Assembly: GCA_004764695.1 (NCBI GenBank)
Contig: SMSO01000014.1
Span: 3,175,148-3,239,147, forward strand
DNA length: 64,000 nt
Direction: 5' to 3'
Source of the DNA: Schizochytrium sp. TIO01
Lineage: Eukaryota; Sar; Bigyra; Thraustochytrida; Thraustochytriidae
Position numbers and translations under genes: made by a program. The first letter of the stretch is position 1, and every line of letters starts with the position of its first letter. The notes under the pieces are model-generated. The model saw nothing but the letters and a program-made list of their open reading frames with translations. It searched no databases and was not told the DNA's origin. This document shows, piece after piece, positions 15,223-57,048 of the stretch.

Positions 15223-17091
15223 TCAAAGATAAGGTTCGTCATCGATTCTTAATGAAATGAGTGACTTGGACTTTCCAAGACTTTCGCCTGAGATTGTTGG
15301 CTCCAGATCGCCAGACTCAAGCAGTTTCAGGGTATTCAAAGAACGGCGCTTCTGAACCTCATCAGAAGAAATAATACGATTGTTAGCCCAATCTGGAATT
15401 TCATGAATGTGGTCCTCCACATAAGTTTGCACACGCAACACAAGACGCTTGCGGTCTTGACGGAGCATCTCTGATGGGTTGCTGTGGCGGGGTTTGCACG
15501 TAGACCGGATAGCAAAAATGTAACTAGGAACATGGCGTAAGCGACGGACGAGGGTCTCACTCATCACGACGCTGATGTAAAACGTATAAATGGGGAAAAA
15601 TACCAAAAAGAAGATTGGAATCAGCCACCATGCATTGCTAGCAAGAAAGTCATACCAAGCATTGTCGTCCGTATTCTTGTATGGCCAGAGGAAAAACAGC
15701 AAAATCAGCCCAACAACCGTGTACAGCACGAGTAAAGAGGGGATAAGAATTGTGCTTTGAATAACCTTTTGTGAAGCTACAACGTCACGTGCTGCAATTT
15801 TTACGGAAGATCCAGCCAAAGCCTTTGCCATCTCGCGCTTCACTACGCACTTGATTCGAAGCGGGATAGGAGAGGCAAGAATAAGTCCAGGTAATATAAG
15901 GGGTAGAATAAAAACCAGCATCAAAAAGGTCACCATCAATTCATACCATGCGCGGAGTAAAGTTACGCAGCTGCCCAACGGTGGAAGTTCGGCGACTTGC
16001 TTATCATCTAAGCCTTGTGCGTAGGCAAACTTATTGTAAAGGTAAATATCGCGAAGGATGGTTTTGAAAGCTGGATCGGATTTCCAAGTCGAGTAAGCAG
16101 CTGAGAATCGAGTGCTTAGGTTGACGTACTCCTCACTCGAGAGCTTAATATTGTTTTGATACATTCGACGGGCAATGCGTAGAGCTGTAAGCTCTTTGTA
16201 AGTGGGTGCACGAATTAGAACGCTTTCTAAGGTTTCATTGACTTTCGCAAGTAGAGCATTTCCGGCTGCAATTTTATCTCCGTGAATATACTCTTCCACA
16301 AGATCATCGTCAACATCGATTGGCTGAGAAACATCGACAAAACAGTTGCTCCGAAATACATGGCCTCCTAGGTAGTTGATTCCAGTTGCCACGATTCTGA
16401 CAGGAATACCGTGAGCACGGGCTCCTAAAGCCATTACAGCAACACCTGCTTTGAGGGGCAGTAGATCTGTATTATCGTGGGAGCCACCTTCCGGGAAAAT
16501 CCCGATTGCGCCGCCTTCCTGGAGCTTGTCGAAGACCTTTTGAAAAAGTTCACGTTGAGGAATCTTGGGGATAACCTTAAAAGACATTCTGCCAGTAAAA
16601 TGTTCAATATGCAAGGGGTTTTCTTCATTTGGCGGTTTAAATGTGAGCTCGTCATCAGACTCCACGGTTGCGACAACAACTTGGCCAACACCCTTGATAG
16701 CAACACTGCATCCTGGCTGTGCGCAGTCGTCAAGGAGGCTACCATGTTCTGTGTAAATTTTGCATGCGTCCAAGTCAATACGTACAATACTTCCTTGTGC
16801 GACCGTGGCGCGATCTTGTGGACGGACAACAGGAACCACATGTAACGCGCGAGCAGCCTGTCCGACGACAGGTTTGTGTAGAGAAGTCTCTGCCATAATG
16901 AAGGACAGCTTTCGCTGAGCTGTTTTCATCATTACCATGGCGTCGACAAATTGATTCATATGATTGCCAACAACGATGATGGGACCCTCCTGTGGCATGT
17001 TCTCGGAGTTCACAATTTCAACACCGTTGGAAAAGAAAATTTTCAGCACCATCATCATCAAATTTCTCACAAAGTAATAGAGGCACGACAT
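15223..17091 (-). CDS. Glycerol-3-phosphate / DHAP acyltransferase, Gpt2/Sct1-like
   Basis: A 622-residue membrane acyltransferase of the PlsC/LPLAT superfamily, closest in layout to the fungal Gpt2/Sct1 type that acylates glycerol-3-phosphate or dihydroxyacetone phosphate at the ER as the first step of glycerolipid synthesis. Motif I is GNHMNQFVD (42-50; catalytic His44, Asp50), with the NQFVD spacing typical of Gpt2/Sct1. Motif III is IFPEGGSHD (198-206). A region between motifs I and III (about 100-165) is enlarged, as in that family. Hydrophobic segments lie near 386-408, 446-470 and 488-510. The C-terminal tail is Ser-rich and charged. The ATG at 17091 has A at -3 and is followed by an aromatic/Met-rich hydrophobic N-terminus. 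It stands alone with large spacers on both sides. Exact acceptor substrate is inferred, not shown. Confidence 0.88.
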   Translation of the reverse strand: MSCLYYFVRNLMMMVLKIFFSNGVEIVNSENMPQEGPIIVVGNHMNQFVDAMVMMKTAQRKLSFIMAETSLHKPVVGQAARALHVVPVVRPQDRATVAQGSIVRIDLDACKIYTEHGSLLDDCAQPGCSVAIKGVGQVVVATVESDDELTFKPPNEENPLHIEHFTGRMSFKVIPKIPQRELFQKVFDKLQEGGAIGIFPEGGSHDNTDLLPLKAGVAVMALGARAHGIPVRIVATGINYLGGHVFRSNCFVDVSQPIDVDDDLVEEYIHGDKIAAGNALLAKVNETLESVLIRAPTYKELTALRIARRMYQNNIKLSSEEYVNLSTRFSAAYSTWKSDPAFKTILRDIYLYNKFAYAQGLDDKQVAELPPLGSCVTLLRAWYELMVTFLMLVFILPLILPGLILASPIPLRIKCVVKREMAKALAGSSVKIAARDVVASQKVIQSTILIPSLLVLYTVVGLILLFFLWPYKNTDDNAWYDFLASNAWWLIPIFFLVFFPIYTFYISVVMSETLVRRLRHVPSYIFAIRSTCKPRHSNPSEMLRQDRKRLVLRVQTYVEDHIHEIPDWANNRIISSDEVQKRRSLNTLKLLESGDLEPTISGESLGKSKSLISLRIDDEPYL

Positions 17092-19981
17092 TTTGGATTG
17101 TTCTTGATGCTGTTTCTCACCTAATAATCAATCGTCAATCCACTGCAAAAAAGAACTTAGTACGGGATAATAAATTTCCTTCTTCCCTCTGCTGCAACCT
17201 GGCCCGAGTTCTAGTTGATTCTTTAGCAACCAGATATCATATATAAATCTTCTTTACGATACCGGAAACCAAATAGGGATCTTCTCTGCAATGCTACTAG
17301 CTTTCCCTTGGATTGATCAACACTCTCCAGTGCAGCTAGAAAAGCAAACCGGGCTAACTTTGTTCTGGCTTCCCAAACTAGAAATGACACGAGCCAGCAA
17401 TCTAGTTACCTGGGTCCACTTAAGTCAAGACGAAGGCCTCAGGCAAGCCTTCGAAAATACAACCACCCCTATTCTTATCCCAGGCAAAGGGTTTTGGTAA
17501 CCCTCTCGTGCGGCCGCTTCTGGACCGCCTTGAGTTTCTTGACTGCTCGCCGGTCTGGCTGCTGCATTCACTGCCTTCTATACAAGCTACTACACGCGCG
17601 CTCAGGAAGGGGCCTAAGAAATGGCTAAAATGTGCTTATTGTTTTACATAACTACTCTTAACAGTGTGTGCGCGCGTGCACCACGTGCTATGACTAAGGT
17701 GTAGGTCGAGGAGTACTATATTATTTAATCATACTTCAAAAAGCACAGTAATCCAAGCGCTAAGAAACTGCTCAAGATAAGCGTAGCAGTAAAAAGTTGA
17801 GCAAGGGTGATACGTGCACTTCATTGTCACTATCTTGGAAATTGTTATTGCAGCGAAGCGAGGAAGTGGCAATGGTACCTACCTTCCATGGTAGTATACT
17901 GTTGCTGCTATTCTACCTGAAAATTGGCGTGGCTGCAAGGAAATTTTGGCAGTTCAGTATGGAAATGGACAAGGTCCTAACTTGAACGAGTAAGAAACTT
18001 GGATAACGCCTGCTTTGCAGTGAGACAAGCGCCAAAATAGAAGGAGGTTCTGAGGGGTCTTTGTAGTCCCTACCTAGTGCCCATGGTAGTAGTCTGCGTT
18101 CACGACAGAAATTTAAGAATGAAACCTTAACAGGCATAGGGCTGTGCTGTATCAACTTATTGGGAAGAATGGCGAAAATCATAAAACGAAGAAAGATGTG
18201 GCTTCTGAGTGGAGAATTAAAAGCAGCCGGACTCGTAGGAGTGCAGACAGTTCGGGTAGAGCATAAGAGACTAAGGAAACATGGCTACAGGCTGCGATGA
18301 CATCGTAAAGAGTTTATGTGAAATTCGAAGTTTGCATCAGGCAGAAACTTGATCGGTAAGCGTTGCAATATCCAGGCGCTCGAGAGTGTGAAAGGTGAAG
18401 ACCGGTGAATCGCTTGCATCTGTGAAATCGGAGCGCAGTTGAATTGCAACTTGTAAAGACTGCAAATCCGTGGCTGGCGTCAAGCCTGGCGTGTTTCGCA
18501 ATGCTCTGATTATACTTTCTCAAAACACAATAACAAATCGTTGTTGGAGGAGTACAGTACCACCGCTCAAGGTTTATCCAAAGATGACGTACTAGCAAAG
18601 GATGCTGTAAAAATAGCAAATTTGTTATTGCTATGTTGTAGGTAGGAGGGTCCTACTATCAGGATTTCACCAAGGGTTCGCTTGATGACTGCTGCATGTC
18701 CCTCTTTATTTCGAACCAGAGGTACGTACAAAAGTGGGGCCGCCTAGGAACTGAAAGACGAAAGACATCAGTCTAGCAGCCTGCTACTTGTGAGTCACGC
18801 ATTTCATAGGTTACCTGGTACTATGTAGTAGTCCCTACTAGACATCCGTGAGCAGGATTTTGCATCCGGGCAGAATTTCTGCATGATAGTACCAACTCAT
18901 TTAGAAAGATGCGTGGAAGGAATGAGTTTTATTTTGTTTTGTTTTGTTTTGTCACTTGCTATGAGCAATATGCTCGAGCTTGCTCATACAAAAAGATTTA
19001 AAGGAGTGTTGTTGTCACATTTCTGCAACAACTTCTTGTCAAGGCACAAATAGTGTACGTTTACTTTTGACTCTTGTCTTTGTGTCCATGCGTTACCGAT
19101 GTTACTCTTTCCCCTGCAGCGGCGCTCGTTCACCAAAGATGAAACCAAGGTAGCATTTACAATCAATCGTCCAAGTTTAACCAGATATGCAAAGCCGTCA
19201 GGTACATATAGCGGACAGGTTTATAAATAAAATGTACTAAGCTTGATTCTGAAAAGAAGAAAAAAGAACTACAAGTTTCGATTGAATTTAGGCACATCCA
19301 AGTACAGCATCCAACGAAGTGAAGCCATGACCATGATTCAGATTGTAATTGCTAATTTTTAGCATGCAATGCTCGCAAGTTAACCAACGCGAGCGAATAT
19401 TTCGAACTAAATTGTAAATCCTCATCAATCGTCTGGGCAAGGTAGTTCCAGAAGAAGAAATAGAGATAGAAGTGAATCACTTGTTACGAAGGCTATGCAT
19501 TTGAAGAATATAGTTGATGGTGATTTGTTTAAAATAAATGAATGGATTACATGTGTGTGTGGTTTTATTTGGGGTGCAGAGACCAAACTCGTTGCACCAC
19601 TCGCTATTTTTACGTTGGGGGATGAATTGTGTCATTCGATTAGATATTTGGATTCATAGTCATCCATGGGTGCGATGAATTATTGTATTACGTTGTCGAG
19701 ATGATGAACATCTGGACTTTGGGGTATTGCATTTTAAGTCAAACATATGCAATGGACAAGTTATCTGCGAACGTGGCATGGTCGCTGCGTCGTAGAAGAA
19801 CTGCAACATCTACGAAAACGGGTCTTTTAAATGACAGAACCGACTATATACAGGAGTAAGTAAGTGTGGGCAGAATTGCATGCATGTATGCTTGGATCGA
19901 TGCAAATGATACTGGACAGAGATGCAACCAAAGGCAAGAAGAAGTATCCTGCTGGTTGTACTATCGGCCTTGAGTGCTTGT
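17092..19981. other. Intergenic, no gene seen
   Basis: No frame longer than about 100 codons and none with recognisable motifs. A short (TTTTG)4 run lies at 18,932-18,951. The region holds the promoter side of the acyltransferase gene (around 17.1-17.3 kb) and the 3' flank of the RING-CH gene (19.5-19.98 kb). Confidence 0.5.
18932..18951. repeat. (TTTTG)n microsatellite
   Basis: Four perfect TTTTG units in gene-free sequence. Confidence 0.85.
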
Positions 19982-21244
19982 CTAAAAAAGCACATCAGGA
20001 GCGGTGGCATGGGGAGCAGAGATAGTCCAGAGCCCTTCGCGGACCTCTCGCTCTAGCTGCCCAGGGTTCCAAGTTGTCATTCCCATGATGACTTTAAGCC
20101 GAGTGTCGCGGAGCTGAGCCGCAGTAAAATTCTCCTCGAAATGCCTAAGTGTTGCATAATGACCGACGCAAAAGCCACCAATGTATGAGTTGGAACCCGG
20201 GATATCATCAAGCTGGTGAATAATAGTAACCGTGGTGTTCGTAAGCGAACCTCCTCGACCAAGCCAGACCCCGGACTCAACAACAGCCCGGCTCATCTGT
20301 CGTGCACAGACAATAGCCGATCCTTGAAGTCTCTCATTCAGGATCACTCCGCTTGCACCAAGGCGCTGATCAAAGTGTTCCACCAGCATCATCCTGCCTG
20401 CAAACTGCGGATTCGCATCCGATGCCTGCAAGAGACACCCGGATTGTATCACTGAGTTGGCAGGGCTTGCTGCCGGCGCAAAGATGATTGCCCTCGCTTC
20501 ATCATCATACGCGACCCCAGGACCTACGTCCACCGCTTCAGGTGCGAGATCCGCTCGAGGAGCTAAAATTTCGGCACCAACGCGAGCAGGTTGCGCCCTC
20601 TCGCGGTCCGCGTTATGCCTACGTGTTCTGCGGTGAGGCATTCCGTGGTAGTAATTAAAATCTGGTGGAAGACGCGGAACCGCTGGCGGAGGCCTTGGCG
20701 GTGGCTGAGTTTCCTGCGAGAACATGCGCCTTACGAAGCTGATAACGGTGGCGAAGACGAGCGACGCGAAGATAATCTGCAGAAGCAGAAGCACCGGGAC
20801 TGTGAAGAGTGCGGGCCCGATGATAAGAATTGGTCTCGAGGTCTTGATCCAGTTCCACGCCGACACGATAAGGGATTCTCTGGGCGGTGGTAGGCTGTAA
20901 CTAGCCTGGCAAACGGAGCATACTGAGGCCTTACGGTGGCTCTTGTTTCGAACACAAGCACCCTGCCACGCACGGAGGCATGCCACATGGACCCAGCGCT
21001 GCGTTCCTTTGCACTGGCATGGGGAGATCCACGCAGAACCTTCGAGGCAGGGTTTCGCGAGATCATCGCGGAGATGATTCGAAAGCCAAATCTTCAGTCG
21101 CGTCCACTGCGAGCCGTAGCTTTCATCACCGCCACACGCAGAAGAATCCAGGCAGATGCGGCATTGGCGAGGGTCGCAGTCATCCTGATCAGACGAGCAG
21201 GTGCCAGCCACGGCAGCCTCATGAGCCGTCTTAGGCGTCGCCAT
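19982..21244 (-). CDS. RING-CH (MARCH-type) membrane protein fused to AlgH/DUF179 domain
   Basis: A 420-residue protein with two unrelated domains. The N-terminal half is a RING-CH finger with ligands Cys28, Cys31, Cys76, Cys78, His86, Cys89, Cys109 and Cys112, exactly the C4HC3 spacing of MARCH-type E3 ubiquitin ligases (CxC, seven residues, HxxC), with a long first loop. A strongly hydrophobic stretch at about 138-171 makes one or two membrane helices, as in MARCH proteins. A Pro/Arg-rich linker (180-250) follows. Residues 262-410 match the AlgH/YqgE (DUF179, UPF0301) family: GCLLQAS near 269, MLVEH, GASGVILNE (296-304), a GG pair near 331, and the terminal MTTWNPGQLEREVREGLW block (389-406). 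AlgH is known from bacteria and plant/algal plastids; its biochemical role is unsettled. ATG at 21244 has A at -3 and G at +4. Probably a membrane-bound ubiquitin ligase; the AlgH role is unknown. Confidence 0.88.
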   Translation of the reverse strand: MATPKTAHEAAVAGTCSSDQDDCDPRQCRICLDSSACGGDESYGSQWTRLKIWLSNHLRDDLAKPCLEGSAWISPCQCKGTQRWVHVACLRAWQGACVRNKSHRKASVCSVCQASYSLPPPRESLIVSAWNWIKTSRPILIIGPALFTVPVLLLLQIIFASLVFATVISFVRRMFSQETQPPPRPPPAVPRLPPDFNYYHGMPHRRTRRHNADRERAQPARVGAEILAPRADLAPEAVDVGPGVAYDDEARAIIFAPAASPANSVIQSGCLLQASDANPQFAGRMMLVEHFDQRLGASGVILNERLQGSAIVCARQMSRAVVESGVWLGRGGSLTNTTVTIIHQLDDIPGSNSYIGGFCVGHYATLRHFEENFTAAQLRDTRLKVIMGMTTWNPGQLEREVREGLWTISAPHATAPDVLF

Positions 21245-21691
21245 GATGGTCTAGTACCTGCTAGACTTGAAAACCAACGGAGCAACCAGACGCAGTTCTG
21301 CGGCACAGATATGAACACTCAGACGCCCTGCCGGGATAGGGTCCGCCCCGGTGCTGGGCACGAGCGAGCGGGAGCGTGGAATCCGTCTCGATTCCGGATT
21401 TGAATTGCTTTCAAGTGAGCCTTTGAGATCACTAGGTACCTAGCTACTAAGTGTTCTGATTTGAATCGATTGACTCGAATGAATGATGATTGTTTTGATT
21501 CGAGAGAAACATATGGTAGAAAAGAAAACTCCTCTTTCTTTGCTTCTTTTCTCTTTCTTCTCTCTTTCTTTTCCCTTCCTTTAATCTATTACTGACTAGC
21601 TTAGGAGGAGCTCAGGGACTGCTAGAGTTAGAGCTGGGAAACCGCGCAGCCATCATCAGCTCTTCGATGCACAATAACAGTCAGCAATCAG

Positions 21692-38038: not shown

Positions 38039-38110
38039 CGCAGTCAAAACTTCCGCGTTCACGTCAGTCTAGTTCATCATTATTGCTGAGGCCGACTAAT
38101 CTCACTTACC

Positions 38111-39826
38111 ATGGATCCTCTCGACTTCGGCGAGCTCGAGGACCTCGACAAGCTCCTGATGCAGGAGGGCGCAGCTGTGTCATCCTCTTCATCCTCTCAC
38201 GCTGCGGAGGCACAGCGTGCCTGGAGGCCGCGTGGGGCCTCGTTCATGTCTGTGGGTTCACACGCTGCGCCACTCCTGGGCTCGCATGCTGGTGCTTATG
38301 ATGGTCAGATGCACTCGGGCCAGGGCCACCTGCAACACATGCAGCACCAACAACACATGCAACAGCAGCACATGCAGCACATGCAGCATCTTCAGGCCCA
38401 GGCGTACGGAAACGCTGCCCATCTTCACCATAATCTTCAACAAAATCTTCAACAAAATCAACATAGCCACGGCAACAATCCGCTTGCGCTCGACTACCAG
38501 ATTGAGTCCGAGGACAGCGACGATGGACTTCTTCGCATGACTGCTGTATCGTCTAAAAACGGAAATGCATCGGCCCTAAGAACCCCGGGGGCTTCAAGCT
38601 TTGCAATGCCAATCTCTCCGGCCTTCCACCCAGGAGCGCAATCCCCTCTGCCACCATCTCTTTCGATGCATTCTTTGCACTCGCAGACGTCTTCAAGGAT
38701 TAATGTAGGCTCTGCAAACATCCTCAACAGCAGCGCCAAATCATCTGCTACTGACTCTAATACTGAGAATGCCAAGAAATCCAACTCGGATGCGGCGAAA
38801 CGGACTGCTAGCACAGCCAGTTCTGAAGATAAAAGCATGGGTCAGGACAACGAAGACGATGACGACGACGATGCTAACAACGGAGGTGGCGCCAAAGATG
38901 GCGACAAGAATGGCAAGAGGACCGGCAAGTTTGACCGCATCCGGAAGAGTTTCAGGGAGAAACAGCGCCGTGCAGAGCACAGCGAGATCTTTACGTCTCT
39001 TGCTCGCACGCTCGGTATGAACCCAAGGCAGCAGCGTGGAGAACTCCTCCAAGCTGCTGTAAACGCACTGAACTCCTTGACGGAGGAAAACCGTATGCTG
39101 AGATCGCACATGGTCATGATGCAGGCGCGGGCGGTAGCTACCATCGAAAGCTTCACGGGAATGCCGAGCATGTATGGACATCCTGGCATGGGATCTCCTG
39201 CGGCAGCAGCGGCAGCTGCTATGTGCGGAGGACCTGGAATGCCGGGTATGGGCATGCCAGGGATGATGCCCCCAGGTTTCTTCCCAGGAGCTCCCTACGG
39301 ACAACCGCACATGGGTCAGCACGGCTTTGGCAACCCGGGCCAGCAGGGCATTAACGTGAATAAGCAACACATGCAGCAAGCTGCCAATATGAATAGTGGA
39401 AACAACAATGACTCCACAGAGCAGGTGCAGAAACGCCGCAGATTGAGCAGTGACGGCTGCTCACCTGGCGCATGTGGTACTCTCAAGCCAACTCAGACAA
39501 ACTGCCAGCAACAGCAGCAGCAAAACTCTGACCAAGCTGGGGAAATGCAACAGACGCAAGAATTTCAAAAGGCTAAATCACTTGCGCCTCGGGAATCAAA
39601 TTCTATGGGCTCACTGGTGCCACCGATGCACATGATGGCTGCTATGATGGAGCAGGAGGACAATCAGAGACAGATCAATCACACAAGCAATTTCGATACG
39701 GACGAATCGAAATCAACAAATCAAACACACGAAAGTCGCTGCCCCCCTCCTCTCTCATCGCCAAATACGTCAATGTACGAAAACGATTCAAACAGCAATA
39801 TCATCACGCATTCGCATTGCGCGTAA
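38111..39826 (+). CDS. bHLH transcription factor with Gln/His/Met-rich regions
   Basis: A 571-residue nuclear protein with one basic helix-loop-helix domain at about 274-332. The basic region reads RKSFREKQRR (278-287); Lys279, Glu283, Arg286 and Arg287 sit at the E-box-contact positions, so binding to a CANNTG site is expected. Helix 1 runs to about Leu301, a short loop contains MNPRQQ, and helix 2 (310-333) has the usual Leu/Ala heptads. An acidic cluster (248-254) precedes the domain. The rest is low-complexity: an acidic N-terminus (1-20), a Gln/His/Met-rich tract (66-118), an Ala run (364-370), a Met/Pro/Gly-rich part (374-395) and a basic KRRR motif (441-444) that may be a nuclear signal. 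The ATG has A at -3. It is convergent with the EHD-like gene. Targets are unknown. Confidence 0.87.
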   Translation: MDPLDFGELEDLDKLLMQEGAAVSSSSSSHAAEAQRAWRPRGASFMSVGSHAAPLLGSHAGAYDGQMHSGQGHLQHMQHQQHMQQQHMQHMQHLQAQAYGNAAHLHHNLQQNLQQNQHSHGNNPLALDYQIESEDSDDGLLRMTAVSSKNGNASALRTPGASSFAMPISPAFHPGAQSPLPPSLSMHSLHSQTSSRINVGSANILNSSAKSSATDSNTENAKKSNSDAAKRTASTASSEDKSMGQDNEDDDDDDANNGGGAKDGDKNGKRTGKFDRIRKSFREKQRRAEHSEIFTSLARTLGMNPRQQRGELLQAAVNALNSLTEENRMLRSHMVMMQARAVATIESFTGMPSMYGHPGMGSPAAAAAAAMCGGPGMPGMGMPGMMPPGFFPGAPYGQPHMGQHGFGNPGQQGINVNKQHMQQAANMNSGNNNDSTEQVQKRRRLSSDGCSPGACGTLKPTQTNCQQQQQQNSDQAGEMQQTQEFQKAKSLAPRESNSMGSLVPPMHMMAAMMEQEDNQRQINHTSNFDTDESKSTNQTHESRCPPPLSSPNTSMYENDSNSNIITHSHCA

Positions 39827-48030: not shown

Positions 48031-51000
48031 TTATAAGGGAGGGAGACTTGGCCCGAGTGCAGAAGATCTGCGCTCTGGAATGTGTGATCGACGCCGACTG
48101 ACCGTAGTGTCTTGCTCTTGTCTATTATCGCGAAGTACACGAGCTGAGTGCTTGAATGAATTCGCTGTTGATGAACTTCGAGGGCTTGCTACTGAGGTTG
48201 GAGTAGAATGACCCTTCGAAGTAGAAGATTGCAAAGATGCAAGCCGAGGAATTCGCGATTTTGGAGCCACTTCCAAGGGGTCTCGAGGAATTGTGGCCTG
48301 CGGACGACTAGCCAAAGGTTCAAGAGCTTTAGGGCGTACCAATTTAGAGGATTGTGTACGGTTTTTTCGACTGTGACCATCACTTAGATAAGTGCGTACG
48401 CGAGATCGGGATGGAGAGGACTGGGCACGTGCCGGTTTACCTCTCGGAGCTGCACCACTCGTGTCAAGCAAGGTATTCTTCGATTGAAGAGGAACATTAT
48501 TGCCAGAGTCATGATGGGACTCAGTATTGCTTGCAGCGCTAGCTGTATGATTTTCCGAAGGTTGCACTTGTTCATCTCCACCCATGTGTAATAGTTGTAA
48601 ACGGAAGTCACGCGTTGCGATCTTTTCCTTTCGACGAGATTTTTTGTCTTCTGGGCAAAGATTGTCTGTATCCAAAGGTTCACTAATATGAGAGCTAGGC
48701 GTGCATTTGTCTTTAGTTTCTTCAAGATGATCTTCTTTCTCCGCTGTTTCTTCTGGTGAAGGGACTGTAGTGTTTGAGCTGACAGCGGGAGGGGCATTTT
48801 CTTTTTGGGCATCATTGGTGATAACCCGAGGTCTCTGTTTGTTACTATTTGACGACGCACTTTTCTGCAACATGCTTTGTATTCGAATACGCTCGCGCGG
48901 GACTTCCTCAAGGCGGTCACCATCATCGAAATCAATAGTGTAAAGGTCTAAGGATGATGAATAAGAAAAAATGGTGCCAGGAAAGAACCGTTTCCAATGC
49001 GCCGCTTTCGCAAGTACCTTTGCTCCACAAGGAAATGGCTCCTCTATCGCATGCGTAACCCCGGCGGCTTTCTCTAAATCCTCATCATTTGCGCTGTGGG
49101 ACGTTCCTGCTGGAGGTGCATATGGAGAGTCTTGAGAATTGTTGGCCTCGGCATCCGAAGCGTCGTCCTCCCGCCCGGCAAGCTCGGCATCGAGCTCTGC
49201 TCTCCAAGATTCTGACCAGTCCTCCTTTTGCGCTAGAAACTCTTCTTGGTAAGATATGCGCTCTTTACGCGGGGGAAGACTCGCGAGATCTAAGGAAGGA
49301 ACTCGCTGAAGAGTAGCTTTTGAGCCGCTCTGCGATAGCTCTCGACACCGTTCGTTGTAATTTTCGATGCCATCACTATCAATTGTCCATGTTGATTGTT
49401 GATTTGGCTTGACTTTACATAAGGCTGTGTTCGTGGTATTTCCATCCACAAGGCTATCGGAATCGTTTACTTCAGCTTCGTCAATACCCTGGATAACATC
49501 AGGTCCCGACTGTGCGTTTCGACGGCTGCTCGGAAACTCGGTGTCCTCATCTAGGTTGACCTTCTCCGCCTCTGGAAAGACGGTGCCTTGGCCCGCTTCA
49601 TGGGAAGCCAGTTCGCGCATCTGAGAACTAGGAAAATCCTTAGATTTCCCGTGATTATTCGAAGAAGTAGCAGATTGCGAATGTGCTACGTTTGCCTCGC
49701 CCGTTTTGTAAACAAGCGCATGCTCATCATATTCGAAAAAGACGCCTTTGCCATCCACAAGTCGGCGTATCGGTCTTCCATCATTCAGTTCTTCCCCCTC
49801 ATCTCCACGAGGGCTTCGTTCAAACAATTGCAAGTTTTCAGAAGATTCAAGACCAAGCTCCTGGGAGATTGCTGATCGCACATCTTGAACAAACGCCCTC
49901 TCTGGGACAAATACGCGAAACGCCACCTCTGTAGAGTCTCGTTTGAAAACGCGCATAAGTACTGAGCCTGGAGGGATTGGCTTGCCTTTCCCAAGATGAA
50001 TAACACTATGATCACAGAAACCAGCAGCCTCCAAGGTCACAGACGTATCTTTGATTTGCGGACCCTTTGCTGAACCCCGAATATGGAAAGCATCTATGTC
50101 AAGTTCTTCTTTGTCTTCGAGAGCACGAAGAAGTCTTTCCTTCACCTCAAGCAAGGAAAGGTCGCGCTGAATACGGATAGAGTGATTATATTGGACAGGT
50201 TCCCCACGCGCATTTAACCTTGGATCATTAAAAGTGATTTCCATGAAACTCATTGCTTCAGTGTAGGCCTCTACCAGCGCATTTGCGTCCAATACGGTGG
50301 ACCTGGTGATGAGGATTCCATCACCATGGCGAAACAATTCAGAAATAGAGAACTCATTAACATCCTTCAAAACCTCGATAGTCGCGCTATCCTTCACGTC
50401 TCTGTGCCTCTGAGAGAGTATGGATTTAGCTCGAAGCAGCTCAAGCTCATTAGTAGGTATACCAAGCTTACACGCAATGAATTGGCGAGCTTCTCGAATG
50501 CTAGCTGCATGAGGCAAAATTACAGGGAGAAAGCTTGTCTGAAAGTTGAAAGCAGAGTCCGTTGCGTCTACAGTACTACCAGTCCACGAAGCTCGGAGTG
50601 GCAAGGGTTCGCATACGGCTTCGTTCCAAGCAAATAAGCAAACTTGTACAACGTCTTCCTGAGCTTCTCTGCTGACCTCAGCATGCCAAGAAGAAGACTC
50701 GAGCCACGGAGGACAGAACTCCAAGAGTAGCGTGGCTTGTCCAACAAATCCGAGCGTTTCTAATGATCGATCTTCGGATACGTCGATGGCACTGCCAATG
50801 CGATTCATATTTTCCCTGACACGACGAAGTCTACAACGAATGAGTGGAATATTCTCTTTTACAGCATGGGGTACAAGTTGACGATACGCAAGGTTTTTTA
50901 CATCAGCCGGAGTGGCTTTCCGAGAATGAACGGTAATGGTCGTAGACTCAGGCATGCTAGGGAAGAGCTCATGCTGGGAGTTAAGAGCCGGGCCTGCAAC

Positions 51001-52464
51001 CACACGAATTCGAACGAGTTGGCGGTCCATAGTTCGTACCTGACGTAAAAAGCTTCTGTATTCGTTGCGCTCTTGTACCCATTCAATAAGATCCTCTTTT
51101 GGAATCAATGATTTTGCATATCGATCTGCTTGACTTGCAGAAGTATAGAAAAGCATATATGCACCACCCTCAGCTAAACACCCACCTTTGTGACACATAC
51201 GCATGACTTGCTCCTCGTCAAGTTCTGTGACGGTTGTATCATTAAACTCATGCCAGATACTCTCTCCTGTGCGAACGATCGCGTAGTAATGCCCTGAATT
51301 TGCACTACCTTGATGAACAATAATTGCGGAAAGTTTGTATTGGGTAGGTGAGGCATCTTCGTTATCATCGTCTAGGCCAATATTTGACTGGGCTGGGTCC
51401 TGTCGTATGTTTTGGCACGCCATTAAATCCTCATCAAGAGAGTCAGAAATAGAGTCTTCCACATTGCTTGCACCCGGGTTTTCATCGTCGCTATTTCTTT
51501 CAGAGCATTCAGTGGTTTGTTTGTAGTTGTCAAGGCCAACAAGGTGCGCAACATCCAAATGCAAGGGAATTTCCACAGTATCATCTATTTTGTTGCGCCG
51601 ACCTGTTTCCCAATCAAAGTCAAAGCGCTTTAAATGTAAGACAAGTGTGGAAGGTAGTGTAACAAGGCGATGACCCTTGACAGCATCTGCTTTGGCATTA
51701 CAGTGTTCACAAAAATACTGATTGTCTCCGTCCAGGCGCTCAACCTCAACAAATGTGTGAAGAGCATCTTTCACATTGACAACATCTTGGACTACTAAGC
51801 TAAGATCCTGGAATTCCTCACGGCGTGCACGTCGATGTGAGCATTGTAAACAGGTGATATAATCCACGAGAGACCCTTTAAATGAGTTAACAAAACTTTT
51901 ACCGTCTTTGAATTGTTCAAGGGAGTCAAACAGAACACGAGCCAGTTCTTGCACATCTTGCTGCTCGAAGGCATCCGCATCGCTCCATCCAAAACTTTTC
52001 GTGAGTGCTGTGGTACTCACAGCAGCTTCCTCAGCAAGTTGTAGTCTTGCAAAAAGCTGTTGTAGCTGCAGCGGTATGCATTTTTCAGGATCTGACACAT
52101 CATCGGGAGTGGGCGTCCAGTCATACACCTTCTCGCGGAACGCCCTAGTATAAAATAGCGTTTGCAGTAGAGAATTAAGATAACATGTCGCACCCTGGTT
52201 ATGAAGTCCAATTATTTCAGTAGATAGCCGATCGCAAGGGTCGAGCGCAAATCTCCCTTCTTTGCTGAGAAACATTTCCAGTAATTGCTTGTTCTGTTCA
52301 TGCTTGCTAAAGTCGTAGTCCTCTGCAAAACCAAGGCCATTGTCGTTTTCTAAGTCTGCGCTATCAAAGGAAGACGATGCTGAGAGATCAGTCCGCGAGG
52401 AATCTTGACCACTTTCGTCTGATCTAGACGAAAGTTTTCCCGTGGGTTTTCCAAGCCTGGGCAT
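48031..52464 (-). CDS. Ubiquitin carboxyl-terminal hydrolase, USP47/USP40-like
   Basis: A 1,477-residue cysteine protease of peptidase family C19 that removes ubiquitin from proteins. The Cys box is GLHNQGATCYLNSLLQTLF (86-104; Cys94), the His box is SANSGHYYAIVR (387-398; His392), with Asn408/Asp409 after it. A zinc site is formed by Cys205, Cys208, Cys252 and Cys255. The order and wording (QQDVQEL, QYFCEHC, LHLKRFDFDWETG) are those of USP47, with an acidic insert (about 320-372) before the His box, also as in USP47. Ubiquitin-like segments follow between about 500 and 1000. At about 1140-1193 there is a Tudor-like stretch ending in YTIDFDDGD. The tail (1300-1477) is Ser/Arg/Pro-rich with two SxIP motifs (1403-1406, 1460-1463). 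The first in-frame ATG at 52464 is chosen; the open frame upstream begins with a non-ATG codon. Probably cytosolic or nuclear. Confidence 0.92.
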   Translation of the reverse strand: MPRLGKPTGKLSSRSDESGQDSSRTDLSASSSFDSADLENDNGLGFAEDYDFSKHEQNKQLLEMFLSKEGRFALDPCDRLSTEIIGLHNQGATCYLNSLLQTLFYTRAFREKVYDWTPTPDDVSDPEKCIPLQLQQLFARLQLAEEAAVSTTALTKSFGWSDADAFEQQDVQELARVLFDSLEQFKDGKSFVNSFKGSLVDYITCLQCSHRRARREEFQDLSLVVQDVVNVKDALHTFVEVERLDGDNQYFCEHCNAKADAVKGHRLVTLPSTLVLHLKRFDFDWETGRRNKIDDTVEIPLHLDVAHLVGLDNYKQTTECSERNSDDENPGASNVEDSISDSLDEDLMACQNIRQDPAQSNIGLDDDNEDASPTQYKLSAIIVHQGSANSGHYYAIVRTGESIWHEFNDTTVTELDEEQVMRMCHKGGCLAEGGAYMLFYTSASQADRYAKSLIPKEDLIEWVQERNEYRSFLRQVRTMDRQLVRIRVVAGPALNSQHELFPSMPESTTITVHSRKATPADVKNLAYRQLVPHAVKENIPLIRCRLRRVRENMNRIGSAIDVSEDRSLETLGFVGQATLLLEFCPPWLESSSWHAEVSREAQEDVVQVCLFAWNEAVCEPLPLRASWTGSTVDATDSAFNFQTSFLPVILPHAASIREARQFIACKLGIPTNELELLRAKSILSQRHRDVKDSATIEVLKDVNEFSISELFRHGDGILITRSTVLDANALVEAYTEAMSFMEITFNDPRLNARGEPVQYNHSIRIQRDLSLLEVKERLLRALEDKEELDIDAFHIRGSAKGPQIKDTSVTLEAAGFCDHSVIHLGKGKPIPPGSVLMRVFKRDSTEVAFRVFVPERAFVQDVRSAISQELGLESSENLQLFERSPRGDEGEELNDGRPIRRLVDGKGVFFEYDEHALVYKTGEANVAHSQSATSSNNHGKSKDFPSSQMRELASHEAGQGTVFPEAEKVNLDEDTEFPSSRRNAQSGPDVIQGIDEAEVNDSDSLVDGNTTNTALCKVKPNQQSTWTIDSDGIENYNERCRELSQSGSKATLQRVPSLDLASLPPRKERISYQEEFLAQKEDWSESWRAELDAELAGREDDASDAEANNSQDSPYAPPAGTSHSANDEDLEKAAGVTHAIEEPFPCGAKVLAKAAHWKRFFPGTIFSYSSSLDLYTIDFDDGDRLEEVPRERIRIQSMLQKSASSNSNKQRPRVITNDAQKENAPPAVSSNTTVPSPEETAEKEDHLEETKDKCTPSSHISEPLDTDNLCPEDKKSRRKEKIATRDFRLQLLHMGGDEQVQPSENHTASAASNTESHHDSGNNVPLQSKNTLLDTSGAAPRGKPARAQSSPSRSRVRTYLSDGHSRKNRTQSSKLVRPKALEPLASRPQATIPRDPLEVAPKSRIPRLASLQSSTSKGHSTPTSVASPRSSSTANSFKHSARVLRDNRQEQDTTVSRRRSHIPERRSSALGPSLPPL

Positions 52465-54093
52465 TCTGAATCTCGTCGTTAAAGGAATCGGGCTGGATTC
52501 GAACAGCAAGAGAACTTTGCTGTGGCTCTGCTCTGGTAGGAAAGTCAATGGGCTTTCTAAACTTGCGCTCCACCAAAGTCTTTGAAATTTGAGTTAATAA
52601 TGTTGAATACCTCAGCTGTGCCGGGTTATTCTTGGCTGCTATTATAGCGCAACCCAGAGCTCTGTGGTTCAATCGCTTCGCAAGTCCTCCCCGAGGAATA
52701 CGCTGTTGTCGAACGAAGACCCCAAACCCACTTGCGGTCTTGTTACTCTTGCTGGCTGATACAGCGTCTTCGATGGAACTACTTTTCCTAATATGCTTTA
52801 GATTGCAAAGTTCATGTATTGACTTACTTGATCTAGGTAGGAAGAATAGCCTCAGCTTATTATTATTAGCAACAAGTGTTACAGCCCAATTGGACTTGGC
52901 TGTGCTCTGATGCTTTCTTTTACAGTATGCGACCGTTCAATGACAGTTACAGTATCTTGCATTGTAAGCGGGGCTGCCTTTTTGCCAATTCTTTCGGGGG
53001 TTCATAAAATACAAAGTTCTCAAAAGTACGCACTACAACAGCATAGCACCACAAGAGTGTTGCATCGAGGAGCATGATTCCAGCTTTAGGGAACAGGTAA
53101 TTCGGGGATAACGTCCCTCCTTGGTTTGCGTCGGTGCCCCCCCTAGCACCTCAGAATGATTGTTCGTGCTCCGTTTTTTTAGCCATCGTTCAATTCCACA
53201 ATAGGACTGACTACGCTAGTAATAGCACTTACAAAAATAATGTACATTTTTAATGTTTCTCTTTTAAATCAATAGAATTTTACCGTTCAGTAAAAGAAAC
53301 TCTTCTTTGGACCGTTACGAATTCTTCTCAACCAGGTAGGTAGGCCCAAAGAGGTCCTCTTCTACCGTCCAGCCCGGTTGTTTGAGTTGAGTACTCCTGT
53401 CCAGACTACGCATGAGTATTATTTCTATGAAAAAAGGGACTTGGACTTCTGCTCATAGGAGTGAATCCCAAAATAGAGGGCGGAATTAATTAGAAGGCTT
53501 TGAAAGTGCATTTACATGGTAATCTGTTTTCCCCGCCTGAAGTACATTATAAAACCGTGTATGTAGACATCGTAGAAATTATTACAGTAGATTACTTTGG
53601 AAGTGCAGACAACGCAAGGCCAAAACAGTAGTGCTGCGTAAAGCTGCTGGGACAACGCGGCAACTTGGGGCACAAGGCAAGCAACACACTCGTGCAATTA
53701 TCTTGCTTGGGCAGCAGAGGTCGTCCAACTAAGACAGGCTGCGCTAAACGCCTTGCTGGGGAATAATTGGAGTATAGATTGACAACTTAACCCGCCTGTG
53801 GAGGGAGGATAGAGCGCATTGACAGTGCGTCAGGGATCTGAATAACATAGGTTATAAACGCCCCGTCTTGCGAATACATTGGCACCTGGCTTGGGTCTGA
53901 TCAAGCAAGCGCCAATCAAACACGTTATCCCAGGGTATGTCAGTGATAAATTGACGAAGGGTATCAATCTTGGGGGCCCAGCGCGTGGGATCTTGGTGCT
54001 AGTCTGCTCGAAAAGAGGTTTCAAGGGCCGGCAAACGCTCAAAAGACTTTCAGCCGTGTTCACGCGCATTTAGAATCACCAAAATAATTGGAG
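52465..54093. other. Divergent promoter region between USP and MBL/CNB genes
   Basis: The only divergent gene pair in the right half shares this 1.6-kb spacer, so both promoters must lie here. No convincing frame and no obvious TATA box. The rightmost 300 bases are GC-richer than the middle. Confidence 0.45.
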
Positions 54094-57048
54094 ATGGGTG
54101 CGGGGGCGTCAGCGGGACCTAATAGCCCTGACAATCTAACAGAGCCAGAATCGGTGCTTGCATTGACGCGTCTAGGAACTCGACAAGGGGATCATCATTG
54201 TGGCGACGGCTATTACATCGAGGCTCCAAAATGTATCGATGAAGGTTTGCATGTGGAGGTTTCAAAGTTCGATGCCGCTGTCGTTGCTTTACCACGGGGC
54301 GGCGTTCTTGTCAACTATGGCAAGGGCACAATTCAATTTGGCCTACCGCCAGAAACTATTAAAGACTCCCTGATGTGGGGCTTAAACGTACCGACGACAT
54401 TTGTTATTCTGGGAGAAGAAATGTTCGATCGGCAGCTAGGAATCAACATTGCCGAATTCGAATTTCCAGCATATTTTAACTTTTTTGTATTCAACAAACG
54501 AGTCACACTAATTACAACCCAAAACGTGGAGAACCGTGTCAGGAGAATATTTCAAGAGACACTGCTCGGGCCTAAGCCAAAGAGTTATGACCTAAGTCAA
54601 GATTTTGCAAGTGATTTACCAGGTGGAGATCTGAACAAGAATAATCAAGCTACCCATTGGCCAAATTTCACGTTAGAAGGTTTGGCACTTGACAAACAGA
54701 GAGAAACAATCACCGTGGATGCTCTTCTCAATTTTGAAAATATAGATAAACGGTACAGTGCTTTCAACGGAGGTGGGGGCACAGGGTTGCACGACACTGG
54801 AAGCGCCACGGGACTAGTAAAGACTGCTCGCATTCCTCGCTTGAACGATCTGGGGAAGGTGATGTTAGATGAAGAGAGCAACACCTATGTAAAGTATAAT
54901 CCAATGCTACGTAAGTATGTTGTGCGCGAAGGGAAGCGCACAATTGCACAAGTAGACCATAATTTCCTAAAGCCGAGAATCAAGGCACAACGAAGTATTC
55001 AGCACGAGCCGTTTGATGTTCCTCTCTTTGGAGTGACGATGCTTGGCGCATCCCATGGATTTGACCCCAAGGGCACAACTACTGGATTCGTAGTTTGGGT
55101 GAATCGTCGAGGCATTATGGTAGACCCCCCTCCGGATAGCGCAGAGGTACTACGGGATCTTGCAATTTCCTCTCGCTTGATTGATGGAATGATTTTAACC
55201 CACTGTCATGCAGATCATGACGCAGGAGCATTTCAAAAAATTCTACACGAAACATCGATCAAAATATACACGACACAGACAATCATGGACTCTTTCATTC
55301 GCAAATACTCTGCAATTTCCAATTTGGACGCAAACTTTTTGCGCGGCTTGTTTGTTTTTGAGCGCGTGAAGATAGGCGAAACCAAGATCATTCACAATGC
55401 AGAATGGAGTTTTCATTATAGTTTGCATGTAATCCCAACGATAGGTTTTGAGGTAAAGTTCATGGGGGAGGGTCTCGTGTACTCAGGGGATACTTGCACG
55501 AATTTTCGATTATTCGAAAAGATGCGCAAGGAGAAAAAAATCGGGATTGGCCGGTATGAGGATTTGGTTAAGCACTCACCTGTATCACGGCAACGGCCAG
55601 CACGCAAGCTAGCTGATGGAAGCGTGATTCCAGCATATAGACCGTTCATTTTACATGAGGCAGGAGTTCCACCAATTCATACCCCGTTGGAAACCTTGGC
55701 TAGACTATCTTCGGAAGTGAGAGATCGCCTCTTCGTGGTGCATGTTGATGAGAAGCAGTTGAATGAAGGAAAGTTTGCTAAAAAACTTCGAACAATCCCT
55801 CAATGGTCGACTTTGCGCATTGATGTAGCATCTTATGTACCAGAGTCAGATGAAACAACAAATTCACTGGCAGCTCTGTTAAGCACTGTTTCTTCTTTCC
55901 GAATGATACGAACAGCGGCAAATCTTAGTGCCTTACTAGAAATCTGTCGAGTTAATTTCTACAATAAAGGCACAGTCATATTGAAAACAGGCGAAACGTG
56001 GAACCGTGCGTATATTGTGCGTGCTGGTGTGGCATTAGAGCTTGCATCCCATGATGGAAGGTCTGTATCAATGGCAGAGGCTTCTGTTACACGCACTTCG
56101 ATGGAAACTGGAAACTATGATTCACGGAGGAAGATGATAGAATCATCCTCCAAGAAAATAGGTTTGGCTGGTGACAAAATCATAGAAGAAGTTAACGCGG
56201 AAGATGGGGATGAGGAACCAAACACCACTTTGGAGACGGGATCGATGAAGCGTCAAGACAGCAGCATTGCACGCAACAATGATACTCGAAGTGTCAGCGA
56301 TTCCAACGTAGGCAATTTGGTTCCCTCGAATGGGAGGTCTCACGATGCGCATCGTGCTGCTACACACAAACCTACAAAGTATATTGTTGGCGATATGTTT
56401 GGTGAACAAAGCGTGCTTGTCGAAAAGAAGCAGGATGGAGACAATTTGAAGCGATTCGACATGATGCGAAAAGTGCAACACGATATAGTAGCTTTAACTG
56501 ATTTATATACTGTAGAGCTGCCTCGTGAGGAACTCTTGCCTTTTTTTGAGACATCAGAAATCGGACAAACAATTCTCGAAAGCCTAAACACAGTTGCACG
56601 TTTCCGGGCTATGGAAACATGGGCGCTTCTGCGCCTAAACAATACATTGGAGAAATCCTTGAACCGTGTGCAACAGCAGGAGTTTCAAAAGCTTCTCTCA
56701 GCTCCGAGAAAATTATCTCGTTATGAGGTCATATTCTCTGGTGGGATTCGTCAGGAGTTCATGTATCTGGTCTCATCAGGTATTATTAACCTATTTTGTA
56801 AAATTGACTCTGAGAATGTTGAATCAGGTCTTAACACGAGCCGTGAGGAAGTAGATAACATGGATTTTCATCCCGGCGCATTGATTGGTGATGTGAATCG
56901 TCTCACTGAGAACTCCGTTGCACATCATGTCTTAACAGCAAAGACAACTGCTATTGTATATGAGATTCCACGTATGTCCATGGTTAATTTTTTAAATCGC
57001 TTCCCAGGCGTCAAGCTTCAATGCATCGATCGTAAGTACATTGTGTGA
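54094..57048 (+). CDS. Metallo-beta-lactamase fold protein with two cyclic-nucleotide-binding domains (GbpA/GbpB-type phosphodiesterase candidate)
   Basis: A 984-residue protein. Residues 1-300 form an N-terminal region with no family I recognise. A metallo-beta-lactamase fold domain (about 312-580) follows, with the metal motif THCHADHD (369-376; His370, His372, Asp374, His375), His445, Asp466 in YSGDT, and His529/His550. Two cyclic-nucleotide-binding (CNB) folds come next: one at about 604-820, split by a Ser/Thr/acidic insert (651-758), and one at about 835-980. MBL plus two CNB domains in this order is the architecture of Dictyostelium GbpA/GbpB, cyclic-nucleotide-activated phosphodiesterases, so hydrolysis of cAMP or cGMP is a reasonable inference. 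The first ATG (54094, two codons inside the open frame) gives MGAGAS, a classical N-myristoylation start. Both CNB cassettes lack the usual Arg. Divergent from the deubiquitinase gene. Confidence 0.87.
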   Translation: MGAGASAGPNSPDNLTEPESVLALTRLGTRQGDHHCGDGYYIEAPKCIDEGLHVEVSKFDAAVVALPRGGVLVNYGKGTIQFGLPPETIKDSLMWGLNVPTTFVILGEEMFDRQLGINIAEFEFPAYFNFFVFNKRVTLITTQNVENRVRRIFQETLLGPKPKSYDLSQDFASDLPGGDLNKNNQATHWPNFTLEGLALDKQRETITVDALLNFENIDKRYSAFNGGGGTGLHDTGSATGLVKTARIPRLNDLGKVMLDEESNTYVKYNPMLRKYVVREGKRTIAQVDHNFLKPRIKAQRSIQHEPFDVPLFGVTMLGASHGFDPKGTTTGFVVWVNRRGIMVDPPPDSAEVLRDLAISSRLIDGMILTHCHADHDAGAFQKILHETSIKIYTTQTIMDSFIRKYSAISNLDANFLRGLFVFERVKIGETKIIHNAEWSFHYSLHVIPTIGFEVKFMGEGLVYSGDTCTNFRLFEKMRKEKKIGIGRYEDLVKHSPVSRQRPARKLADGSVIPAYRPFILHEAGVPPIHTPLETLARLSSEVRDRLFVVHVDEKQLNEGKFAKKLRTIPQWSTLRIDVASYVPESDETTNSLAALLSTVSSFRMIRTAANLSALLEICRVNFYNKGTVILKTGETWNRAYIVRAGVALELASHDGRSVSMAEASVTRTSMETGNYDSRRKMIESSSKKIGLAGDKIIEEVNAEDGDEEPNTTLETGSMKRQDSSIARNNDTRSVSDSNVGNLVPSNGRSHDAHRAATHKPTKYIVGDMFGEQSVLVEKKQDGDNLKRFDMMRKVQHDIVALTDLYTVELPREELLPFFETSEIGQTILESLNTVARFRAMETWALLRLNNTLEKSLNRVQQQEFQKLLSAPRKLSRYEVIFSGGIRQEFMYLVSSGIINLFCKIDSENVESGLNTSREEVDNMDFHPGALIGDVNRLTENSVAHHVLTAKTTAIVYEIPRMSMVNFLNRFPGVKLQCIDRKYIV

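Follow-up and report, generated by a model that had tools for sequence, protein, structure and literature searches.

RING domains act as binders of E2 enzymes, and the account given in PMC4021871 counts 11 human RING-CH proteins, all of them MARCH proteins and all membrane-bound except two (PMC4021871). A comparable arrangement is that of the PA-TM-RING ligases, such as GRAIL and RNF13, in which a membrane segment links a RING ligase to a distinct domain for recognition; in the case of GRAIL, the PA domain aids substrate binding (PMC4021871). PMC8047169 describes the bacterial protein AlgH, which belongs to the AlgH/YqgE (DUF179) family, as a regulator whose function is unknown.

In bacteria, the stand-alone form of AlgH is the norm, because 130 of the 139 DUF179 matches obtained in one bacterial phylum lie in open frames shorter than 300 aa; these matches come from 139 of 150 genomes, one each, and the domain was also detected in 5 of 14 control genomes. 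Among eukaryotic DUF179 proteins, Arabidopsis DUF179-2 carries PDI/thioredoxin domains as its partner domains, whereas the partner in the protein described here is a RING. According to PMC8889267, DUF179-2 (AT3G19780) is predicted to be secreted, is no ClpC1 interactor and perhaps resides outside the plastid, and the PDI and thioredoxin superfamilies are among the families of proteins named in a figure legend of that paper. The same source presents DUF179-1 and DUF179-3 as proteins of the stroma that interact with ClpC1 (trap enrichments of 1.3- and 4.6-fold, respectively) and assigns DUF179-3 to a coexpression module in which genes for ubiquitin and autophagy are abundant; its authors consider that trapped proteins of unknown function may include Clp adaptors or anti-adaptors (PMC8889267).

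In the 64-kb window (the whole stretch of DNA analysed here, with a GC content of ~45%), both families meet in a single gene of 420 aa on the minus strand (19982..21244), in which a RING-CH finger is followed by a hydrophobic segment, a linker and an AlgH/DUF179 domain. The fusion reported by the initial annotation is real: the 420 codons form one uninterrupted frame with both Pfam domains inside it, and the stop-to-stop frame (19982..21250, minus strand) leaves 2 codons between the upstream stop and the ATG. By a simple single-base estimate, an open run of 420 codons would arise by chance at the local base composition with p ~1e-7. A codon-usage score trained on seven long window frames ranked the annotated frame highest of six over the whole ORF (z 5.7) and over the linker (residues 176-261, z 2.6 against stop-free shuffles); the signal was weak over the RING (z 1.6) and the hydrophobic segment (z 0.8), another frame scoring higher in each. 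In comparison with the PA-TM-RING ligases, the RING type and the recognition domain of this protein are unrelated and the domain order is reversed.

Several other frames of the window were also scanned. The nearest is an acyltransferase-family gene (PF01553, 1e-18; 15223-17091, minus strand), which lies downstream of the fusion on the same strand. A frame of 1520 aa (48031-52593, minus strand) encodes a ubiquitin carboxyl-terminal hydrolase (UCH, 9.1e-55), and its presence ~27 kb from the RING-CH gene is probably a coincidence. On the plus strand, a 986-aa frame (54088-57048) combines a domain of the metallo-beta-lactamase type with a cyclic-nucleotide-binding domain at its C-terminus, and a 578-aa frame (38090-39826) is rich in runs of Gln, His, Met and Asn and has no Pfam match at E 0.001.

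The RING-CH (C4HC3) finger occupies residues 28-112 (20909..21163, minus strand), as delimited by the Pfam match and the spacing of the ligands. All eight ligands are present in RING-CH order (C28, C31, C76, C78, H86, C89, C109 and C112, with gaps of 2/44/1/7/2/19/2), and the RINGv match (PF12906, residues 67-111, E 3.6e-6, 27.4 bits) exceeds its cut-off of 21.6; the RING-CH call of the initial annotation was correct. The match is confined to positions 10-47 of the 47-position model, and this late entry into the model is probably due to the length of the first loop. In a phmmer search of solved structures, the N-terminal half returned weak but correctly placed matches to the RING-CH structure 2d8s (E 0.026) and to 2m6m of Doa10 (E 0.039). 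The protein has the same C4HC3 ligand order as the MARCH and other RING-CH membrane E3 ligases and, like them, a hydrophobic segment after the finger, but differs from MARCH ligases in its first loop of 44 residues, in the sequence QRWVHxxCLRxWQ, in a PPP motif that follows the final two cysteines, and in its C-terminal AlgH domain; its ligase activity is predicted.

The membrane helix claimed after the finger corresponds to a hydrophobic segment of 34 aa (residues 138-171; 20732..20833, minus strand), a putative membrane anchor that reaches Kyte-Doolittle values of up to 2.55 per 19 residues and coincides largely with a helix predicted by AlphaFold2. The full-length AlphaFold2 model is poor (mean pLDDT 42.6, 15 alignment rows, neither domain confident), and an unbroken helix at residues 145-179 is its sole long stretch with pLDDT >70. 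The segment is followed by a linker rich in Pro, Ala and Arg (residues 175-262; 20459..20722, minus strand), recognized by its composition (16 P, 16 A and 11 R of 88 residues) and its codon usage.

The AlgH/YqgE (DUF179) domain comprises residues 268-420 (19985..20443, minus strand) and includes the motif G-x3-W-x2-GQLExE...W, as defined by Pfam, hhalign and alignment. The Pfam match (PF02622, E 9.6e-11, 42.3 bits against a cut-off of 27) covers residues 278-410, inside the C-terminal region (262-410) to which the domain had been assigned from the start. Alignment by hhalign to a profile of 13 bacterial AlgH proteins covered residues 277-408 (E 4.6e-6, probability 86.5%), a phmmer search of solved structures with the C-terminal half returned the UPF0301 protein 2do8 (E 0.02, weak but correctly placed), and a profile built from the window domain and 19 bacterial rows matched 8 distinct solved sequences, including 2mui (AlgH) and 2do8. 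The 19 bacterial rows agree completely at 29 columns. At 16 of these the window protein has the same residue, among them GA.G...N, the GG pair and W..GQLE.E, where 2000 letter shuffles kept 1.7 on average and 10 at most; the other 13 columns are lost, 3 of them in a missing tail. Identity to the bacterial rows is 17-25%, and in its sequence the AlgH part appears clearly related to bacterial AlgH but diverged. The domain shares the conserved core and the GQLE motif with bacterial AlgH/YqgE proteins (DUF179, PF02622; solved as 2mui, 2do8, 2gzo and others), but unlike them it is incomplete, ending at 'LF' without the last ~30 residues, and sits inside a larger eukaryotic protein. The best score against the NCBIfam YqgE/AlgH equivalogs was 28.6 bits, the cut-off being 254; by the NCBIfam rule, the sequence classifies as a DUF179 domain and not as a YqgE equivalog.

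A search of the whole genome (64.06 Mb, 37 contigs) located DUF179 at 4 places with E <= 0.001, 3 of them above the cut-off, and RINGv at 12 places, all above the cut-off as matched; one of the latter, scanned as a whole protein, fell below the cut-off and fitted another RING family better. A second RINGv+DUF179 gene was found at G000:C31:3324772-3327015 (L007:2773-5016), where one frame of 747 aa holds both domains above their cut-offs (RINGv 1.3e-8, DUF179 7.2e-7), so that a RING-CH finger shares the frame at two of the four DUF179 places. Its DUF179 match has 29.8 bits against a cut-off of 27 and spans model positions 80-141 of 157 only, and hhalign assigned it a probability of 28.9% over 39 columns. 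The AlgH half of this second protein seems to be split by an inserted stretch ahead of the conserved GYAGW motif. The other two DUF179 places have no RING: P0003 (DUF179 3e-12) and P0004 (9.4e-5, under the cut-off). A chance frame or a single assembly slip was considered for the window gene and rejected as very unlikely, given this second locus with the same domain pair and the codon usage of the linker.

The same genome also contains an unusual protein in which a RING-CH finger is followed by an FHA domain (L010:1562-3409, in the region of G000:C31:7656978; FHA 5.7e-9, RINGv 1.1e-8). This is a further case of a RING-CH finger joined to a globular domain, although it differs from the window protein in having FHA in place of AlgH, and its RING is not followed by a strong hydrophobic stretch.

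Both RING-CH/AlgH fusions carry the sequence QR[WY]VHxxCLRxWQ and a PPP motif, and in a comparison of 10 RING rows, which did not include the FHA fusion because the pattern used to collect the rows missed it (its motif, read separately, differs), the QR and WQ pairs occurred in the two fusions only (2 of 10). The RING tree of the same rows joined the two fusions at 97/93, with long branches, and still at 74/91 when the 12-residue tail holding the PPP motif was removed. With the window protein as the genome query, the second fusion was the first of three matches (1.5e-5); with the second fusion as the query, another RING-CH locus was best and the window RING ranked third of four other loci. The RING-less P0003 (8e-9) resembles the window protein's AlgH half more closely than the second fusion does (E 3.2), and a poorly resolved AlgH tree with very long branches grouped the window protein, the second fusion and P0003 at 73/75; that tree did not reject a single clade of both fusions (p-AU 0.629). 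A common origin of the two is at most suggested, and one fusion event with a later duplication would be a plausible history.

Relatives of the fusion were sought in further collections. None was found in viral contigs with the proteins P0001 and P0002, the RING alignment or the RING DNA motif as queries, none in the phage collection searched, and none in prokaryote genomes by the RING motif search. A search with the AlgH alignment gave no relative in the viral contigs either; of the 151 candidate stretches that it yielded in prokaryote genomes, 109 were confirmed as bacterial AlgH genes, as expected, and 80 were kept. The collections being prokaryotic, viral and phage, these blanks say little about the spread of the fusion among protists. 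RING-CH/DUF179 pairs may occur in other protists. No paper combining RING-CH with DUF179 was found in the literature searched. The parts are known families, and the combination is provisionally new, as judged from that literature.

PfaD-type PUFA synthases are known from thraustochytrids, and PfaD-family PUFA synthase domains were found in two frames of the genome with E ~1e-201, two more matches being weak and under the cut-off; among the bacterial controls, 3 of 14 matched the family, 1 of them above the cut-off. The two copies of near-equal score, at G000:C4:589107 and G000:C30:1474872, are either true duplicates or two haplotypes. No chlorophyll a/b-binding (light-harvesting) protein was found in the genome. 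A plastid function of the AlgH domain is unlikely because this absence and the PfaD-type synthase point to a non-photosynthetic thraustochytrid, and the link to plastids drawn in the initial annotation probably does not apply here.

The best explanation, to which we assign a probability of about 60%, is a genuine two-domain protein, namely an E3 ubiquitin ligase of the RING-CH type that is anchored in a membrane and uses its C-terminal AlgH domain for recognition. We infer the ligase activity, the recognition role, the membrane association and the topology as parts of this explanation. The organelle membrane and the ligand sensing by AlgH put forward in the initial annotation are likewise proposals. 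The N-terminal RING-CH finger would bind E2~ubiquitin in the cytosol, the 34-residue hydrophobic segment would hold the protein in an endomembrane, and the flexible linker would carry the AlgH domain, which would dock a substrate or a small ligand and thereby decide what gets ubiquitinated.

The side of the membrane on which the AlgH domain lies is a question within this explanation, as a stretch of 34 residues is compatible with either one helix or a hairpin. In a single-pass form, the RING would be cytosolic and the AlgH domain lumenal, resembling a PA-TM-RING ligase in reversed order, with AlgH sensing cargo and the RING marking across the membrane. The continuous, confident helix at residues 145-179 favours a single pass and hence an AlgH domain opposite the RING. 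The RING-less P0003 and P0004 start with hydrophobic, anchor-like stretches which, if they are anchors, would place their DUF179 domains in the lumen; the predicted secretion of Arabidopsis DUF179-2 (PMC8889267) and the help that the PA domain gives GRAIL in substrate binding (PMC4021871) are also consistent with this form. However, the hydrophobic segment is directly followed by a strongly basic stretch (12 K/R and 5 D/E in 60 residues), which would be unusual on the lumenal side, some basic residues also precede the segment (3 K/R and 1 D/E in 30 residues), and the second fusion has no comparable segment (best 19-residue mean 1.15), so that both of its domains should share a compartment. The single-pass form, while compatible with the best explanation, is accordingly held at somewhat below even odds, and because of the flanking basic residues and the second fusion without such a segment we lean slightly towards an AlgH domain on the cytosolic side.

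An alternative to AlgH as the recognition part is that the fusion is real but the AlgH domain is no receptor, regulating the ligase or tying it to another complex, while substrates are reached through the membrane segment in the manner of MARCH ligases. This agrees with the other RING-CH frames read, 8 of 10 of which have a hydrophobic stretch after the RING (19-residue mean 1.7 to 2.9) without AlgH, the exceptions being the second AlgH fusion and the FHA fusion, and with the lack of a settled AlgH function in PMC8047169. The second fusion, however, keeps its DUF179 match without the hydrophobic stretch, which makes AlgH, and not the membrane segment, the shared element, and we regard a non-receptor role as credible but unlikely. 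It is highly improbable that two adjacent genes merely appear fused through an unseen intron, a frame accident or an assembly error: the linker is of low complexity and an in-frame Met at residue 202 could start an AlgH-only product, but the second locus has the same pair in one frame, the codon usage of the linker fits the frame, and AATAAA is absent from the ORF on the minus strand and hence from between the halves, occurring first at 19569, ~410 bases past the stop.

The recognition reading can be extended to AlgH in general, which would then act in regulated protein destruction as a recognition module, choosing clients for proteolysis or quality control. This wider proposal is quite unlikely as it stands. 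In its favour, AlgH is joined to a RING-CH ligase twice in one genome, and the Arabidopsis protein DUF179-2 carries domains of the PDI/thioredoxin type. The association of two plastid Arabidopsis DUF179 proteins with the unfoldase ClpC1, including the protein in the ubiquitin/autophagy module, points the same way; against it, the same paper gives DUF179-2 as no ClpC1 interactor and DUF179-1 as just 1.3-fold in the trap (PMC8889267). If true, client recognition would provide a role that can be tested for the AlgH/YqgE proteins of bacteria. AlgH/YqgE is widespread among bacteria and its function is unsettled; two natural fusions to RING-CH within a single genome connect the domain with protein turnover, and they open a tractable route to that function, in which the partners of the AlgH half may be compared with what the ligase marks.
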